The translations under genes were made by a program, and so were the position numbers. A stretch of 43,136 bases of DNA, taken from the NCBI GenBank assembly GCA_900314765.1, contig OMWN01000027.1, positions 1-43,136 of the forward strand, in the 5' to 3' direction. This DNA comes from an uncultured Selenomonadales bacterium. Its GTDB lineage: Bacteria; Bacillota; Negativicutes; Selenomonadales; Selenomonadaceae. The notes beneath the pieces are model-generated. The model was not told the DNA's origin, made no database searches, and was given only the letters and a program-made list of their open reading frames with translations. Of this stretch, positions 20,075 to 42,566 are shown in pieces (positions within the stretch are counted from its first letter, which is position 1; each line of letters starts with the position of its first letter).

Positions 20075-20890
20075 ATGGAAAGACGTTGGCTGGTTTATCC
20101 GTATCATCTGTGGATGCTCATTTTCACGGTCATACCGCTTGCGCTGATTTTCTTTTTCGCATTCACGGAGCCATCGACGTACGCGTTCACACTCGAGAAC
20201 ATCAAGAGAGCCGCAGAGCCTGTGTATCTTCAGGTGCTCGGCCACTCCGTGTGGCTCGCCGCCGTATCGACGTTTCTGTGCTTTCTGATTGGCTACCCGA
20301 TGGCGATGATACTCGTGAGCTCGCGCGTGAAATACCGCAACATGATGGTGATGCTCGTCATCATCCCGATGTGGATGAATTTTCTTCTGCGCACATACGC
20401 GTGGATGACGCTTTTGGAGAAAAACGGCCTCATAAATGCCATCGTGAAATTTTTTGGCGGCGCGACGGTGCAATTTCTCTACACGGACGGCGCGGTGCTC
20501 CTCGGCATGGTCTACAATTTCCTGCCGTTCATGATACTGCCGATATATTCTGTGCTGATGAAAATGGACAAAAGCCTCGTCGAAGCGGCAGAAGACCTCG
20601 GCGCAGACGCGTTCACGACGTTTCGCCGCGTGACGTTCCCGCTGTCGCTCCCGGGCGTCTACGCGGGCATGCTCATGGTGTTCATGCCGGCCGTCACGAC
20701 GTTCGTCATATCGAGGCTCCTCGGCGGCGGCCAGTACATGCTCATCGGCAATGTCATAGAGCAGCAGTTCCTCGCCATAGGCAACTGGGGCTTCGGCTCG
20801 GCGCTCTCCGTGCTCATGATGGTGCTCATCATGATAAGCATGGCGTTCCTTTCGCGCTACAATAAGGCGGGAGGTGGCATGTACTTATGA
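20075..20890 (+). CDS. potB: Spermidine/putrescine ABC transporter permease PotB
   Basis: The 271-residue inner-membrane permease has about six membrane helices. Near residues 165-195 it has the EAA loop for PotA contact (LVEAAEDLGADAFTTFRRVTFPLSLPG). The family N-terminus (YHLWMLIFTVIPLALIFFFAF) is present. The start follows an AAGGAGG ribosome site at the end of potA. The stop overlaps the potC start as ATGA (4 bp), indicating translational coupling. Confidence 0.95.
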   Translation: MERRWLVYPYHLWMLIFTVIPLALIFFFAFTEPSTYAFTLENIKRAAEPVYLQVLGHSVWLAAVSTFLCFLIGYPMAMILVSSRVKYRNMMVMLVIIPMWMNFLLRTYAWMTLLEKNGLINAIVKFFGGATVQFLYTDGAVLLGMVYNFLPFMILPIYSVLMKMDKSLVEAAEDLGADAFTTFRRVTFPLSLPGVYAGMLMVFMPAVTTFVISRLLGGGQYMLIGNVIEQQFLAIGNWGFGSALSVLMMVLIMISMAFLSRYNKAGGGMYL

Positions 20891-21669
20891 TGAGATTTTT
20901 GAGACGCTTTTACGCGCTGATTATTTTCGGATTTCTCTATCTGCCGATTTTCGTGCTGATTATTTTCTCGTTCAATGCGTCGAAGTCGCGCGCCACATGG
21001 GAAGGCTTCACGCTGCGCTGGTATGAGGAACTTTTCGACAGCAGCGCAATACTCGGGGCACTCGAGAACACGCTGACGGTCGCAGTCATTGCGTCCATAT
21101 GCGCGACGGTGATTGGCACGCTCGCGGCATTCGCGATGTACAAGGACATGAAGCCGTGGGAGCAGAAAGTCGTGATGAACCTCACGTATCTCCCCGTTCT
21201 GAACCCGGACATCGTGACGGGCATATCGCTGATGCTGCTGTTCATATTCGTGAAGCTCAATCTTGGCCTCGTGTCGCTCCTTTTGGCGCATACGGTGTTC
21301 AACGTGCCGTACGTCATGCTCACGGTGCTGCCGAAACTCAAGCAGTTCGACAGCAGCCTGTACGAGGCGGCACTCGACCTAGGCGCGAGCCCGTCGTACG
21401 CGTTTCGCCGAATCGTGTTCCCAGAGATACTGCCCGGCATCATAACGGGCGCGCTCTTCGCGTTCACGCTCTCGATTGATGATTTCGTCATCAGTTTTTT
21501 CACGACGGGCTCGGGCGTGAATAATCTCTCGATACTCATCTACTCGATGGCAAGGCGCGGCATTCATCCGACAATCAACGCGCTCTCGACGCTGATGTTC
21601 CTGACGGTGCTCGTGCTTTTGCTCCTCGTGAACAAGCGTGTCGTAGAGGGGGAAAATAAGAATAAGTAA
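20887..21669 (+). CDS. potC: Spermidine/putrescine ABC transporter permease PotC
   Basis: This 260-residue permease pairs with PotB. It has six membrane helices, YLPIFVLIIFSFNASKS near the N-terminus, and the EAA loop SLYEAALDLGASPSYAFRRI. The segment FAFTLSIDDFVISFFTTG is characteristic of PotC. It overlaps potB by 4 bp. The partner potD lies 525 bp downstream on the same strand, with two repeat elements in between; in most genomes potC and potD are adjacent. Confidence 0.95.
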   Translation: MMRFLRRFYALIIFGFLYLPIFVLIIFSFNASKSRATWEGFTLRWYEELFDSSAILGALENTLTVAVIASICATVIGTLAAFAMYKDMKPWEQKVVMNLTYLPVLNPDIVTGISLMLLFIFVKLNLGLVSLLLAHTVFNVPYVMLTVLPKLKQFDSSLYEAALDLGASPSYAFRRIVFPEILPGIITGALFAFTLSIDDFVISFFTTGSGVNNLSILIYSMARRGIHPTINALSTLMFLTVLVLLLLVNKRVVEGENKNK

Positions 21670-21686
21670 ATTAAAAATATAAAAAA

Positions 21687-21838
21687 TGACTCGGTGATGC
21701 CTGTCCTCATCCACTGCGCAATTTCGACAGGCTCTAAGGCTTTACTCCTCGCGGCAAAAGCGAAAACACGCCGCTTCGGAGCAAGCCAAAGAGCCTATAT
21801 GAAATTGCTAAGTTACTTCTGACAGGCATCGCCTCGGG
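21687..21838. repeat. Repeat D1: 152-bp covarying multi-stem palindrome
   Basis: The sequence folds almost end to end. An outer stem GGTGATGCCTGTC/GACAGGCATCGCC is followed inward by GCAATTTC/GAAATTGC, AGGCTCT/AGAGCCT, then GGCTT and CTCC with GGAG and AAGCC. The apical stem is GCGGC/GCCGC around a loop AAAAGCGAAAACAC. The copy at 42217-42367 keeps the same fold with compensatory changes in at least two stems. It starts 17 nt after the potC stop, encodes nothing, and could act as RNA or as a DNA hairpin. Confidence 0.85.
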
Positions 21839-21866
21839 AATAATCTGGAACTCACACGTTTGTAAA

Positions 21867-22106
21867 GACCCTCTCCGCCCCTGCGGGGCACCTCCCCCAG
21901 AGTGGGAGGCAAAGTATGAGAGTCTTAATGCTAGAACCTAACGAAAGAAGAAAACATGTTACACTTTCAATAATCGATTTTTTTCTAGAGTAAAGGATTT
22001 CATGCTTTCATGTGTGGATTTTCAGCTAATGCAAATAATCTCAGCATCTGTGACGCCAGCCTCCCCAATGGGGGAGGTGCCGAGCGACTGCGAGGCGGAG
22101 AGGGTC
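21867..22106. repeat. Repeat A2: 240-bp element with terminal inverted repeats (subfamily I)
   Basis: The ends are GACCCTCTCCGCC (21867-21879) and its exact complement (22094-22106). The interior aligns with that of A1, including CAGCTAATGCAAATAATCTC near the right end. Unlike A1 it lacks the CATGCC/GGCATG insertion; the right module reads GGGGGAGGTGCCGAGCGACT. It lies between D1 and potD. Confidence 0.85.
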
Positions 22107-22194: not shown

Positions 22195-23250
22195 TTGAAA
22201 AAAACGGCTAAAATCATGTCGCTCATTCTGATGGTCGTCATTTGCGCGATTGCGCTCGTCGGCTGTGGCGGCGGCAAGAAGGCTGAGCGAGAGCTCAAAG
22301 TCTACAACTGGGGCGACTATATCGATCCCGATGTGCTCGCTGACTTCGAGAAGGAGACGGGCATCCACGTCATCTACGACACGTTCGCGACGAATGAGGA
22401 CATGTACGTGAAAATCAAGTCGGGCGGCAGCGACTACGATGTGGCCATCCCGTCGGACTACATGATTTCGCGCATGATACGCGACGGCCTGCTCGAGAAA
22501 ATCGACACGTCGAAAATCGAGAACTACAAGCTCATCGGAAAAGACTACAAGGATTTGCCGTTTGACCCGAAAAATGAGTACTCCGTGCCGTATATGTGGG
22601 GCACGGTCGGCATCGTCTACAACACGAAAATGGTGACGGACCCCGTCGACAGCTGGTCGATACTCTGGAATCCAAAATACGCGAAGCAGATATTCATGCT
22701 CGACAGCCCGCGCGACTCCATCGGCATCACGCTCAAATATCTCGGCTACTCGCTCAACACGGGCAATGAGGCAGAGCTCGAGGCGGCAGGCAAGAAGCTC
22801 ATAGAGCAGAAGCCGCTCGTGCTCGCGTATGTCGTCGATGAGGTCAAGGACAAGATGATAGCGGGCGAGGGCGCGCTCGCCGTCGTATGGTCGGGCGACG
22901 CCGTGTTCATGATGGAGAAAAATCCTGATCTCGCGTACGCAATCCCAAAGGAAGGCACGAACTATTGGTTTGACTCGATGGTCATCCTCAAGGGCGCAAA
23001 GCACAAGGCAGAGGCCGAGGAATTCATCAATTTCATGACGCGTCCGGACATTGCGAAGCGCAATGTCGAGTACATCGGCTACGCGTCGCCAATCCCTGAG
23101 GTCGTGAAGATGCTCGACCCAGAGGTGCAGAAAGACCTCGCGTCATATCCGCCGAAGGAAATGTTCAAGAACTGGGAAGTGTTCAGCGATCTCTCGGAGA
23201 ATCTGCCGAAGTATGACAAAGTCTGGACAGAGGTCAAGGTCGCGCAATAA
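22195..23250 (+). CDS. potD: Spermidine/putrescine-binding lipoprotein PotD
   Basis: The 351-residue solute-binding protein captures polyamines outside the inner membrane for PotABC. A lipoprotein signal peptide is clear (basic start, hydrophobic core, lipobox LVGC with C24). The mature part has the type-II binding-protein motifs KVYNWGDYIDPDVL, SDYDVAIPSDYMISRM, VPYMWGTVGIVYNT and GALAVVWSGDAV. The start is TTG, preceded by GAGAGGGG at a rather long spacing of about 13 nt; no better start is present. It has its own leader, so it may be regulated separately from potABC. Confidence 0.94.
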   Translation: MKKTAKIMSLILMVVICAIALVGCGGGKKAERELKVYNWGDYIDPDVLADFEKETGIHVIYDTFATNEDMYVKIKSGGSDYDVAIPSDYMISRMIRDGLLEKIDTSKIENYKLIGKDYKDLPFDPKNEYSVPYMWGTVGIVYNTKMVTDPVDSWSILWNPKYAKQIFMLDSPRDSIGITLKYLGYSLNTGNEAELEAAGKKLIEQKPLVLAYVVDEVKDKMIAGEGALAVVWSGDAVFMMEKNPDLAYAIPKEGTNYWFDSMVILKGAKHKAEAEEFINFMTRPDIAKRNVEYIGYASPIPEVVKMLDPEVQKDLASYPPKEMFKNWEVFSDLSENLPKYDKVWTEVKVAQ

Positions 23251-31915: not shown

Positions 31916-32192
31916 GACCCTCTCCGCCCCCTGCGGGGGCACCTCCCCCAAAGTGGGAGGCATAGCGAAAGCGGTGCTTCACGATATGATAAAAAGTGAA
32001 CGATAGCTAATCTCTTTACAAACCTGCAATATGCACAATTTCAATTACGATGAAAATTTGTGATTGCGGTGTTGCTAATAAATCGATTTTGCTAGAGTAA
32101 ATAATCTCAGCATTTGTAACGCCAGCCTCCCCAATGGGGGGCAAACATGCCAGTGGCATGTTTGCGCGAGCGAATGCGAGGCGGAGAGGGTT
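31916..32192. repeat. Repeat A3: 277-bp element with terminal inverted repeats (subfamily II)
   Basis: The ends are GACCCTCTCCGCC (left) and GGCGGAGAGGGTT (right). The right module has the same CAAACATGCC/GGCATGTTTG insertion as A1. The interior aligns over its full length with the reverse complement of A4 at 37017-37273 (for example GCTTCACGATA near the left and CAATTACGATGAAAA in the middle), and less well with A1/A2. Together with C2 it fills the 626-bp gap between the chemoreceptor and the convergent sulfhydrylase gene. Confidence 0.85.
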
Positions 32193-37016: not shown

Positions 37017-37273
37017 ACCCTCTCCGCCTCGCATTCGCTCGGCACCTCCCCCAGAGTGGGAGGCTGCCTCCACAGATTCTGGAATTATTTACTCAAGCTG
37101 AATCGATTCATTAGTAAAAGCCTGATTACAAGTTTTCATCGTAATTGAATTGTGTAGCTTGCTTTATCCTGTAAAATTAAGAACTATTGTTCACTATTGA
37201 TTGTATCGTGAAGCATTGATTTCGCTATGCCTCCCACTCTGGGGGAGGTGGCCCCGAAGGGGCCGGAGAGGGT
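37017..37273. repeat. Repeat A4: 257-bp element, inverted orientation (subfamily II)
   Basis: The ends are ACCCTCTCCGCC and GGCCGGAGAGGGT. Reverse-complemented, the whole interior matches A3 (GCTTCACGATA, CAATTACGATGAAAA and GAGTAAATAAT blocks in the same order). It occupies the gap between the coiled-coil gene and the infC promoter, leaving that promoter intact 64 bp downstream. It lacks the CATGCC/GGCATG insertion. Confidence 0.85.
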
Positions 37274-37337
37274 CTTCACAGACTCATAAGATTTTGGATT
37301 TATGAGCTCCAAGTTGCAATTTATTTCGATTTCCCTA

Positions 37338-37374: not shown

Positions 37375-37487
37375 ATTAGCAAAGCAGAGGCCACCGCTTC
37401 TCACCTTGGCGACATGGGTCGTCGGGTTTGATATTGGGATTTGGAATCAATGAGGGTGGCGTTTTGCGCCGCCCTTTTTCGTTTGTA
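37375..37487 (+). promoter_or_regulatory. infC operon leader with attenuator (L20-leader-like)
   Basis: The leader ends in an intrinsic terminator (GGGTGGCG-TTTTG-CGCCGCCC then TTTTT, 37455-37482) placed just before the infC ribosome site. Upstream is GC-rich structured sequence (GAGGCCACCGCTTCTCACC, GGCGACATGGGTCGTCGGG). In Bacillus subtilis L20 represses this operon by attenuation in such a leader. Assignment to that class rests on position, the terminator and gene order, not on a covariance-model match. Confidence 0.6.
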
Positions 37488-38738: not shown

Positions 38739-39575
38739 ATGGAGCGGATAGAGAGTCTGGCGAATGGGCGGATAAAGCTAGCGGCGAGTCTTCATCAGCG
38801 GAGGACGCGCGAGCAGACGGGGAAGTTCATCGCTGAGGGTGTGCGCCTCGTCGAGACGGCGGTGGCGTCGAGCTGGCGCGTTGATTTCATGATTGTGACG
38901 GACGATGCTCTCAAAAACGAGCGCGTCAAAAGCATCGCGGAGAAGCTCGAGGCGCGTCGTGTGCCTGTGCTTGTGGCGTCGCGAGAGCTTTACAAGAAGG
39001 CTGCGGCGACGGACACGCCGCAGGGCGTGCTCTGTGTGATGGAGCGCCGCGCGTGGACGATGGACGACATTGCCGCGTCAATGGGCACTGGGGAGGGCGC
39101 GGCAGAGAAAGCGCCGCTCATCGTCGTGCTTGACGGCGTGCAAGACCCCGGCAACGCGGGAACCATCCTTCGCACGGCTGATGCCGTCGGCGCGACAGGC
39201 GTGATTGCGATGAAGGGCACGACGGACTTTTTTTCTGACAAGGTCGTGCGTTCGGCGATGGGCTCGCTGTTTCATTTGCCCGTCGTGACGTCGGTCGATA
39301 CGGCGGATTTATTGACGTTCGTCGAGCAGCAGAGCCTCAGCGTGTTCGTGACGATGCTCGACGATACGGCTCGGCCACATTTTGATGCGGATTTCACGGT
39401 GCCGTCGGCTATCGTTTTCGGCAACGAGGGGAGCGGCGTTTCGGGCGCGCTTCGCGATGTCGGCGAGAAAATTTTCATACCGATGAGAGGTCAGACGGAG
39501 TCGCTGAATGTTGCCACGTCGGCTGCAATCGTGCTGTATGAGGCCGTAAGACAGAGATATTATATGAGTTTATGA
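38739..39575 (+). CDS. SpoU/TrmH-family (SPOUT) RNA methyltransferase
   Basis: The 278-residue protein has an N-terminal substrate-binding domain (about 1-100; RTREQTGKFIAEGVRLVE). The C-terminal SPOUT fold with the three motifs of 2'-O-methyltransferases follows: DGVQDPGNAGTILRTADAVG, FGNEGSGVS and IPMRGQTESLNVATSAAIVL. It uses SAM to methylate a ribose in rRNA or tRNA; the target is unknown. ATG at 38739 follows AAGGAGG; a longer frame to 38703 is rejected because it runs through the terminator. The order after rplT is common in Firmicutes, as with ysgA. Confidence 0.93.
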   Translation: MERIESLANGRIKLAASLHQRRTREQTGKFIAEGVRLVETAVASSWRVDFMIVTDDALKNERVKSIAEKLEARRVPVLVASRELYKKAAATDTPQGVLCVMERRAWTMDDIAASMGTGEGAAEKAPLIVVLDGVQDPGNAGTILRTADAVGATGVIAMKGTTDFFSDKVVRSAMGSLFHLPVVTSVDTADLLTFVEQQSLSVFVTMLDDTARPHFDADFTVPSAIVFGNEGSGVSGALRDVGEKIFIPMRGQTESLNVATSAAIVLYEAVRQRYYMSL

Positions 39576-39604
39576 AATTATGGGTTTGCAAAATAATTTG
39601 TTAG

Positions 39605-39837
39605 GTCACCCCACCACCGCGCTTTGCGCGGTCCTCCGCCCCTCAAGGGGCGGACAAAAACAGGACGTTCGATACGATTATAACCTTTAAGGATATGCCT
39701 AAAGTGATAGTTGAGATGATACAATCGTAGCGTTAAAAGTAAATCAAAAGCGGTAGAGTATTACGTAAAGCCTGCTTTCGCGTTCAGTCCGCCCATTGAG
39801 GGGCGAGGAACCATGCGTAGTATTGTGGTGGGGTGAC
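39605..39837. repeat. Repeat B2: complete 233-bp element with terminal inverted repeats
   Basis: The left end GTCACCCCACCACCGCGC (39605) is matched by TGGTGGGGTGAC at the right (to 39837). Inner arms are CCCCTCAAGGGGCGGAC at left and GTCCGCCCATTGAGGGG at right. The interior is AT-rich and encodes nothing. Single ends of this family are found at 4700-4772 and 11644-11697. It fills most of the 378-bp gap after the methyltransferase gene. Confidence 0.85.
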
Positions 39838-39953
39838 TTAAAAGCCTCTTTCTCAAACCCATAAATAGATAAATTTCATATTCGAGTGAGACAATACGAA
39901 TTAGCACAGAATTGCGTTAGCAAATGAAGCAGGTTTTGTAGGAGGAATGAAGT

Positions 39954-41373: not shown

Positions 41374-41415
41374 TGAAAAAATGATGAGCGCGTCGATATA
41401 ATGCGGCGTTCATTG
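41374..41415 (-). terminator. Possible terminator after thiN
   Basis: On the minus strand ATGAACGC pairs imperfectly with GCGCTCAT and is followed by CATTTTTTC. It has one mismatch and a long loop, so it is weak. Confidence 0.35.
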
Positions 41416-42156
41416 ATTGAGACAAATATAAAGACCGAGAATTCCATTTTTCAAAGCGACGGTGAATGTGCCGTCGCTTTCTTTTTTTAGTTTGTTGCTG
41501 ACGGCGTATGGCTCGTACGCTTTGAGCACGGCGTCATGAAGCGGCCAATGCGTGCCTGTGATGGTGACGCCGTCGCAAATGGGTGAGAGCGCGATGAGCG
41601 ATATGGCGAGCGGGGCGCTGTCGAGGCGAACGCTGACTTCATCATTTTGACGCATGACGAGAAGCATCTCCCTGTCGTCGGCCATCATGCCGTCGAGACC
41701 AGAGCCGATGAGCGAGAAGACATTGGCGAGCGCGTGGTCGAGCCGCCCGCCGAATGACGCCGCCATGATGACGAACGGCGCGCTGTGTTCGCTATTTCCG
41801 TTACGTACGCTGTCTGCTTTTATTTTTTGCAGCACGAGCTGCGTATCGGTGTAGTCTTTTTCTACGGAAAATTTTTCTTTTATGATATTTTTTTCATTTG
41901 CCCACGTGAGTGCGTCATCACTCACGCTGTCGTCATCGCCCATCATGAGCGTCGGGACAATGCCGTCACATCGCAGCGCGTCGAGTCCCCTGTCGGCGGC
42001 GATGATGGTTTCTATGTTGTTGCTCTCGACGACGGACGCGAGCCATCCTTTCTTTGGCGCGCGTCCACCGATGACCATCAACGTGGGCGGCAACGTCAAA
42101 GAGTGTGAGAGCGCCATCGTTATTTGTGGCAGATAGATATTTGAGCAGTTCGTCAA
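41410..42156 (-). CDS. thiN: Thiamine pyrophosphokinase
   Basis: ThiN pyrophosphorylates thiamine with ATP to give thiamine diphosphate. The protein (248 residues) has PTLMVIGGRAPKKGWLA, AADRGLDALRCDGIVPTLMMGDDDSV, the catalytic EKDYTDTQLVLQK, and AASFGGRLDHALANVFSL, followed by the C-terminal thiamine-binding beta domain. TTG at 42156 is chosen because GGAGG lies 8 nt upstream. ATG at 42171 overlaps that site but would only add five residues. The gene is convergent with ribF, and its 3' end contains the ribF terminator on the other strand. Confidence 0.9.
   Translation of the reverse strand: MTNCSNIYLPQITMALSHSLTLPPTLMVIGGRAPKKGWLASVVESNNIETIIAADRGLDALRCDGIVPTLMMGDDDSVSDDALTWANEKNIIKEKFSVEKDYTDTQLVLQKIKADSVRNGNSEHSAPFVIMAASFGGRLDHALANVFSLIGSGLDGMMADDREMLLVMRQNDEVSVRLDSAPLAISLIALSPICDGVTITGTHWPLHDAVLKAYEPYAVSNKLKKESDGTFTVALKNGILGLYICLNQ
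41453..41488 (+). terminator. ribF terminator located inside the 3' end of thiN
   Basis: GCGACGG-TGAATGTG-CCGTCGC followed by TTTCTTTTTTT is a strong plus-strand terminator. It lies within the last codons of thiN, which is read on the minus strand, so the same bases serve coding and termination. Confidence 0.8.
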
Positions 42157-42216
42157 TATGGTGACCTCCATATTCGTATAGTTTTATAAAGCACAGTATG
42201 AGAGCGACGGTAGAAA

Positions 42217-42367
42217 TGACTCGGTGATGCCAGTCCTCATTCACTGCGCAATTTCAACAGGCTCTAATGCTGGCTGCCTAGCGGCAAAAGCGAAAACACG
42301 CCGCTTCGGCGCCAGCCAAAGAGCCTGTATAAAATCGCTAAGCTACTTCGGACTGGCATCACCTCGG
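42217..42367. repeat. Repeat D2: 151-bp covarying multi-stem palindrome
   Basis: This is the second copy of D1, in the same orientation relative to the plus strand. The outer stem is GGTGATGCCAGTC/GACTGGCATCACC, then GCAATTT with AAATCGC, ACAGGCTCT/AGAGCCTGT, then GCTGGC and GCC with GGC and GCCAGC. The identical apical hairpin is GCGGC/GCCGC. Several pairs differ from D1 on both sides of the stem. It lies between thiN and the DUF3592 gene. The rest of this 395-bp gap (42368-42566) is AT-rich, with no gene seen. Confidence 0.85.
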
Positions 42368-42566
42368 CAACTTTAGTAGCATAAATTTTACAAGATTACA
42401 TTTTCCTTTATTTTATCATTAATCAACAATTTAATCGACGATGAAGCAGGAATAAAAAAATCTTTGTCGAATAAAAATATTAGGTGAATTGTTGCCAATT
42501 TGTGACTAAAATTTCTAAAAATGTCATAGCATAGATTTGAGATAGTTTATAGCGGGAGGTTGTCGG

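Follow-up and report, generated by a model that had tools for sequence, protein, structure and literature searches.

Among the closest described systems are the bcr1 repeats of the Bacillus cereus group (together with bcr2–bcr18), which are MITE-like elements of ~150 bp that are taxon-restricted, intergenic and multi-copy, form a hairpin and contain no ORF, and which often lie in UTRs and in the gaps of operons (PMC2267715; PMC3446304). In two B. cereus strains, 40–51% of the bcr repeats are found within an mRNA, and bcr3 correlates with a longer half-life (PMC3446304). The ERIC/IRU repeats of enterobacteria and Vibrio and the YPAL repeats of Yersinia are dispersed, intergenic elements of 127–170 bp, ERIC being predicted to form a single long stem-loop, and ERIC RNA hairpins change the expression of neighbouring genes in Yersinia (PMC2267715). 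It is an old question whether hairpin repeats of this kind in bacteria are selfish debris or RNA or DNA structures that are maintained. In the present study we describe a family of long hairpins, here called repeat D, two copies of which (D1 and D2) lie in the window, i.e. the whole stretch of 43,136 nt that was analysed, and we conclude that D is very probably a new bcr1/ERIC-like repeat with a maintained hairpin.

The two window copies

The core hairpins of D1 and D2 are located at positions 21687–21838 and 42217–42368 respectively, both on the + strand, and each is predicted to fold as one long interrupted hairpin. A first-pass annotation of this DNA had placed two almost completely folding hairpins here, and both the placement and the folding were borne out, with z-scores near −9. 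D1 has a predicted energy of −70.3 kcal/mol compared with a mean of −39.4 for dinucleotide shuffles (z −8.76), and D2 (42217–42367) has −75.7 compared with −41.1 kcal/mol (z −8.93); for neither copy was any of 200 shuffles as good. Both also match a covariance model of the repeat that was trained on 46 copies (176 bits for D1 and 182 bits for D2), and D1 has 94% identity to the copy at C33:22169. The paired differences that had been read between the two copies are likewise present: the outer stem is CCTGTC/GACAGG in D1 and CCAGTC/GACTGG in D2, the T-G pair beside GATGCC in D1 is a T-A pair in D2, and the sub-apical stem has been rebuilt between them, while the apical loop is identical. The nearest relative of D1, copy L039, carries CCAGTC with GACAGG and so has an A-A mismatch in this stem, which indicates that the change to CCTGTC was stepwise, with the 3′ arm altered first and D1 compensated afterwards.

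The limits given in that annotation leave out weaker inverted repeats on the outside, the conserved unit being ~26 nt longer on the left and ~18 nt longer on the right. By a position profile of 52 copies, the outer segments lie on the + strand at 21661–21686 (left; consensus ATGAGTTTGTAAAATTATAGNNAAAA) and 21839–21856 (right; consensus AATATTCACAAACTCATA) for D1 and at 42191–42216 and 42369–42386 for D2. These extensions are degenerate in both copies, and the left one has diverged strongly in D1.

A dispersed family restricted to one sampled species

D had been described as a pair of copies, but BLASTN and the covariance model together identified 52 near-full-length copies in the host assembly (G000; 2.33 Mb in 103 contigs). 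The same assembly also contains a single very divergent copy, two deletion forms (L114 and L115) that retain the outer hairpin alone, and several copies that another repeat has interrupted or cut short. Pairwise identity of the core among D copies averages 0.89, with a range of 0.81 to 0.97. The element measures ~195 nt overall, of which the core makes up 152 nt. From the outside inwards, the core consists of an outer stem (GGYGATGCCAGTCC/GGACTGGCATCRCC), an internal loop in which TCATYC lies opposite the non-complementary TTACTTC and which is retained in nearly all copies, two further stems (GCAATTTC/GAAATTGC, then ACAGGCTCT/AGAGCCTGT), a sub-apical stem and, at the tip, an apical hairpin whose loop is A-rich. 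A 10 bp terminal inverted repeat, ATGAGTTTGT/ACAAACTCAT, is seen in about a dozen copies and is degenerate in the rest. We considered and rejected insertion of D into a pre-existing ATGAGTTTGT palindrome, as no empty palindrome of that form was found in its own genome or in 20 relatives; the outer segments were therefore taken as the ends of the element and not as its target.

Other repeats are found in and around D. A fourth repeat, with ends GGAAACGCTGATTAATT or GGAAACGCTGATTAATTGA/TCAATTAATCAGCGTTTCC, is inserted at preferred points in the D hairpins L112 and L113, with TTTA on both flanks in L113, and is met by at least six further D copies (L106–L111); these eight copies lie on contigs C31, C60, C22, C32, C93, C29 and C6 of the same genome. 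A third hairpin family of 240–280 bp, ACCCTCTCCGCC...GGCGGAGAGGGT, occurs in the window at 2651–2912, 21867–22105, 31916–32191 and 37017–37274; it lies directly 3′ of D1, and its start, ACCCTCTCC, is also found shortly after several other D copies. A 310 bp giant hairpin at 39564–39873 (GGTCACCCCACCACC...GGTGGGGTGACT) is a member of a second dispersed family, fragments of which occur at ~20 genomic sites, and sits within a ATGAGTTTATGAAA-type palindrome resembling the D ends.

Comparison of the PotC protein encoded beside D1 places the host, a bacterium of rumen type, in the Selenomonadaceae near Schwartzia, the best match (88% amino acid identity) being a Schwartzia MAG from goat rumen. D was absent from the sister species and from all 188 other genomes of the family (189 including its own), and from a 380-genome sample of the class, in which a single weak 26-nt match was taken as chance. 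DNA pattern scans gave no matches in viral contigs or in a collection of genome contigs that possibly lacks the window's own genome, and distant BLASTN searches of plasmids and phages found none. The first-pass annotation had recognised no named family, and in agreement with this the Rfam covariance models gave no relevant match to D at gathering or relaxed thresholds. As far as these sequence searches reach, D is new in sequence and restricted to one species among the genomes sampled. Elsewhere in the window, a ribosomal protein L20 leader was recognised at 37376–37486 (Rfam RF00558; 63.3 bits).

Paired changes between the arms of the hairpin

The 52 copies were examined with an R-scape-like test using a tree-based null over all 11,628 column pairs. 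No single pair reached E < 0.05 at this scale, which is attributed to the high conservation of the copies (89% identical on average). The R-scape type of check proposed earlier gives a mixed result, positive in aggregate but not singly, where 1 of 53 pairs passes and only within the structure set. In aggregate, Watson-Crick cells lie above and mismatches below the expectation of the tree-aware null: 48 cells are double-changed and still Watson-Crick (12.4 ± 4.9 expected) and 20 pairs show a double change (7.1 ± 2.0 expected), neither value being reached in any of 400 simulations.

Linkage between sites gives the same picture. Paired variable sites (12 site pairs) have a mean r2 of 0.168, which none of 100,000 random sets reached (Mann-Whitney p 1.5e-6), whereas unpaired variable sites (1069 site pairs) have an r2 of 0.026 against an expectation of 0.020 and are near independence at all distances, so that each D copy can be treated nearly as an independent sample. 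Independence is almost as complete for unpaired sites that are close neighbours (r2 0.040), so common descent is not the cause of the paired association, and sliding the partner sites by 1–3 columns lowers r2 to 0.008–0.068. With linkage among the 52 copies so close to zero, common descent confounds the analysis far less than is usual, and the paired changes stand out cleanly.

The very divergent copy (C67:13765–13918; L007:269–422, minus strand) has the same loops on largely rewritten stems. Of its 53 pairs, 17 have been altered at both positions yet remain paired, three have been altered at one position, 26 show no change and seven are unpaired; it retains TCATCCACTGC and GTTACTTCGG, and its A-rich apical loop resembles that of the other copies. 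No second copy of this type was found in the 189 family genomes.

These data clearly show that paired change between the arms of D is real, and the evidence for maintenance of the hairpin is unusually clean. The core has an identity to consensus of 0.930, compared with 0.68–0.73 for the outer ends, which also have more indels per base. Neither core identity nor the number of mismatches per copy is related to decay of the flanks (rho −0.02 and −0.09 respectively), so the core does not follow a simple course of rot after insertion. Such conservation could stem from selection that acts on fold and loops, from gene conversion between D copies, or from correction templated by the hairpin itself. 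We consider selection on the fold to be the most natural cause of the paired changes; as many single changes still break pairs, any selection would be moderate. The earlier argument from covariation to selection on the fold gains the aggregate signal of 52 copies, D1 and D2 alone being insufficient for it, but arm-to-arm correction would also yield compensatory changes.

Genomic context and orientation

D1 lies 17 nt after a PotC-like ABC permease gene (20887–21669, + strand; PF00528), whose product has 78–88% amino acid identity to Selenomonadaceae relatives, and is followed by a PotD-like solute-binding protein gene (22195–23250, start codon approximate, + strand; PF13416). D2 has a thiamin pyrophosphokinase gene on its left (41410–42171, − strand; PF04263 and PF04265). 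The DUF3592 assignment of the first-pass annotation has no Pfam support in the two ORFs tested. A potD homologue lies closely downstream of potC, with no hairpin between them, in eight of nine relatives, the ninth having a different gene there; on the contig of the sister species (G001) a different gene follows potC, so that comparison with an empty site gave no clean boundary there.

Across the family, copies adjoin many unrelated genes, which bears out the earlier view that D is no simple regulator in cis of a single gene. By our own ORF scoring, none of the confidently predicted coding ORFs runs across a D copy, while L120 is overlapped by a single ORF of low score. In 36 of 50 copies the gene to the left lies on the D+ strand (p 0.003), with an upstream stop codon within 60 nt of D in 23 of these 36, and the co-directional contexts are 22 (++) compared with seven (−−) (p 0.008). 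Position and orientation would fit transcription of D within an mRNA, although the orientation bias could instead be a trace of where insertions survive and not of function.

Proposed origin and maintenance of the hairpin

Taken together, we interpret D as a species-restricted, non-autonomous, dispersed stem-loop repeat, bcr1/ERIC-like in general character, whose copies were probably dispersed in the past by an enzyme that has either been lost or escaped recognition. Intergenic positions are where most copies would have been tolerated or retained, frequently no more than 60 nt 3′ of a stop codon and in the direction of the gene. At such positions they may form part of the transcribed mRNA, in which the hairpin may serve as a stability or processing element. 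We give this reading as a whole a probability of roughly 0.55. Within it, action at the mRNA level as the main reason for maintenance is a tentative proposal, to which we would give slightly less than even odds. New mismatches read on the D+ strand are more often A-C than G-T (62 compared with 27 events; 21 compared with ten when counted per pair, p 0.07), but the cell counts are equal. The A-C excess hints weakly at the complementary strand and fits poorly with action as sense mRNA; this hint being inconsistent, RNA-level action of D is something that we infer. That the >50 copies form a joint post-transcriptional regulon, in which a partner protein or RNA would read the internal and apical loops in mRNA gaps and 3′ ends and each copy would be selected at its own locus, we regard as unlikely.

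The principal rival, which we judge a real possibility though somewhat unlikely, is that the fold is kept only for a mobilising enzyme, through single-strand or MITE-type transposition, the copies being selfish and their paired changes inherited from varied active sources. The dispersed, species-restricted distribution of D, its outer inverted repeats, the existence of deletion forms with the outer hairpin alone and its absence between potC and potD in the eight relatives with the same gene order would all be expected if so. However, the Y1 transposase domain PF01797 (IS200/IS605/REP-associated) is absent from the assembly, the same search being positive in five of 14 control genomes, and no mobile-element parent was identified in a transposase search that covered PF01797 only. 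No consistent target-site duplication was found in the 12 copies with good ends, four of which have direct repeats of at least 5 nt compared with 1.5 by shuffling. Moreover, several compensatory doubles are confined to one copy each, and the hairpin is no worse preserved in copies with decayed ends than in fresh ones.

A second alternative dispenses with selection: quasipalindrome repair or template switching would copy one arm onto the other, making the paired changes mechanical. The conserved pairs 20/138, 45/112, 67/90 and 71/86 are double-changed with the single-change intermediate absent from the sample, as such correction would predict. Arm copying would nevertheless tend to erase the TCATYC/TTACTTC loop, which is kept even in the divergent copy, loops are conserved like stems, and L039 is an explicit single-change intermediate for an outer-stem pair; we therefore think this distinctly improbable.

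It is very improbable that D is a family of genes for trans-acting small RNAs, each copy giving its own RNA. Its loop sequences are deeply conserved on variable stems and its complementary strand is slightly more stable as RNA, which would suit such genes, but at D1 and D2 we found neither a promoter-like site upstream on the D+ strand nor a terminator-like site ending the element, and >50 copies lie at unrelated places. Finally, chance palindromes or an assembly artefact are refuted, since in spite of the fragmented assembly (103 contigs) and two copies 9 nt from contig ends, the z-scores are near −9 and most of the >50 copies lie inside contigs with unique flanks.

Comparison with known repeats

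D falls within the 50–300 bp range of stem-loop repeat families and is, like them, multi-copy, dispersed, intergenic and possessed of a common predicted hairpin fold; it also has terminal inverted repeats (ATGAGTTTGT/ACAAACTCAT), as MITEs do. D is set apart from bcr1 and ERIC by their descriptions and by the Rfam search, and Rfam may not contain these repeats. REP/BIME elements are, like D, intergenic palindromes and can stabilise mRNA, but they measure 20–40 bp and REPs are associated with a tyrosine transposase, whereas D has no PF01797 in its assembly. ERIC/IRU and YPAL share with D their length class and their dispersed intergenic placement, and ERIC also its predicted long stem-loop; ERIC differs in sequence and phylum, and is found in many genera whereas D is found in the genome of one species. 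Finally, bcr1 is reported to duplicate TTTAT at its target, and the D copies showed no duplication of this kind; no sequence similarity between the two is known. They are nevertheless alike in size class, taxon restriction, intergenic multi-copy placement, conserved hairpin and lack of an ORF, and the D family may prove useful for testing which forces preserve such repeats once they have spread.
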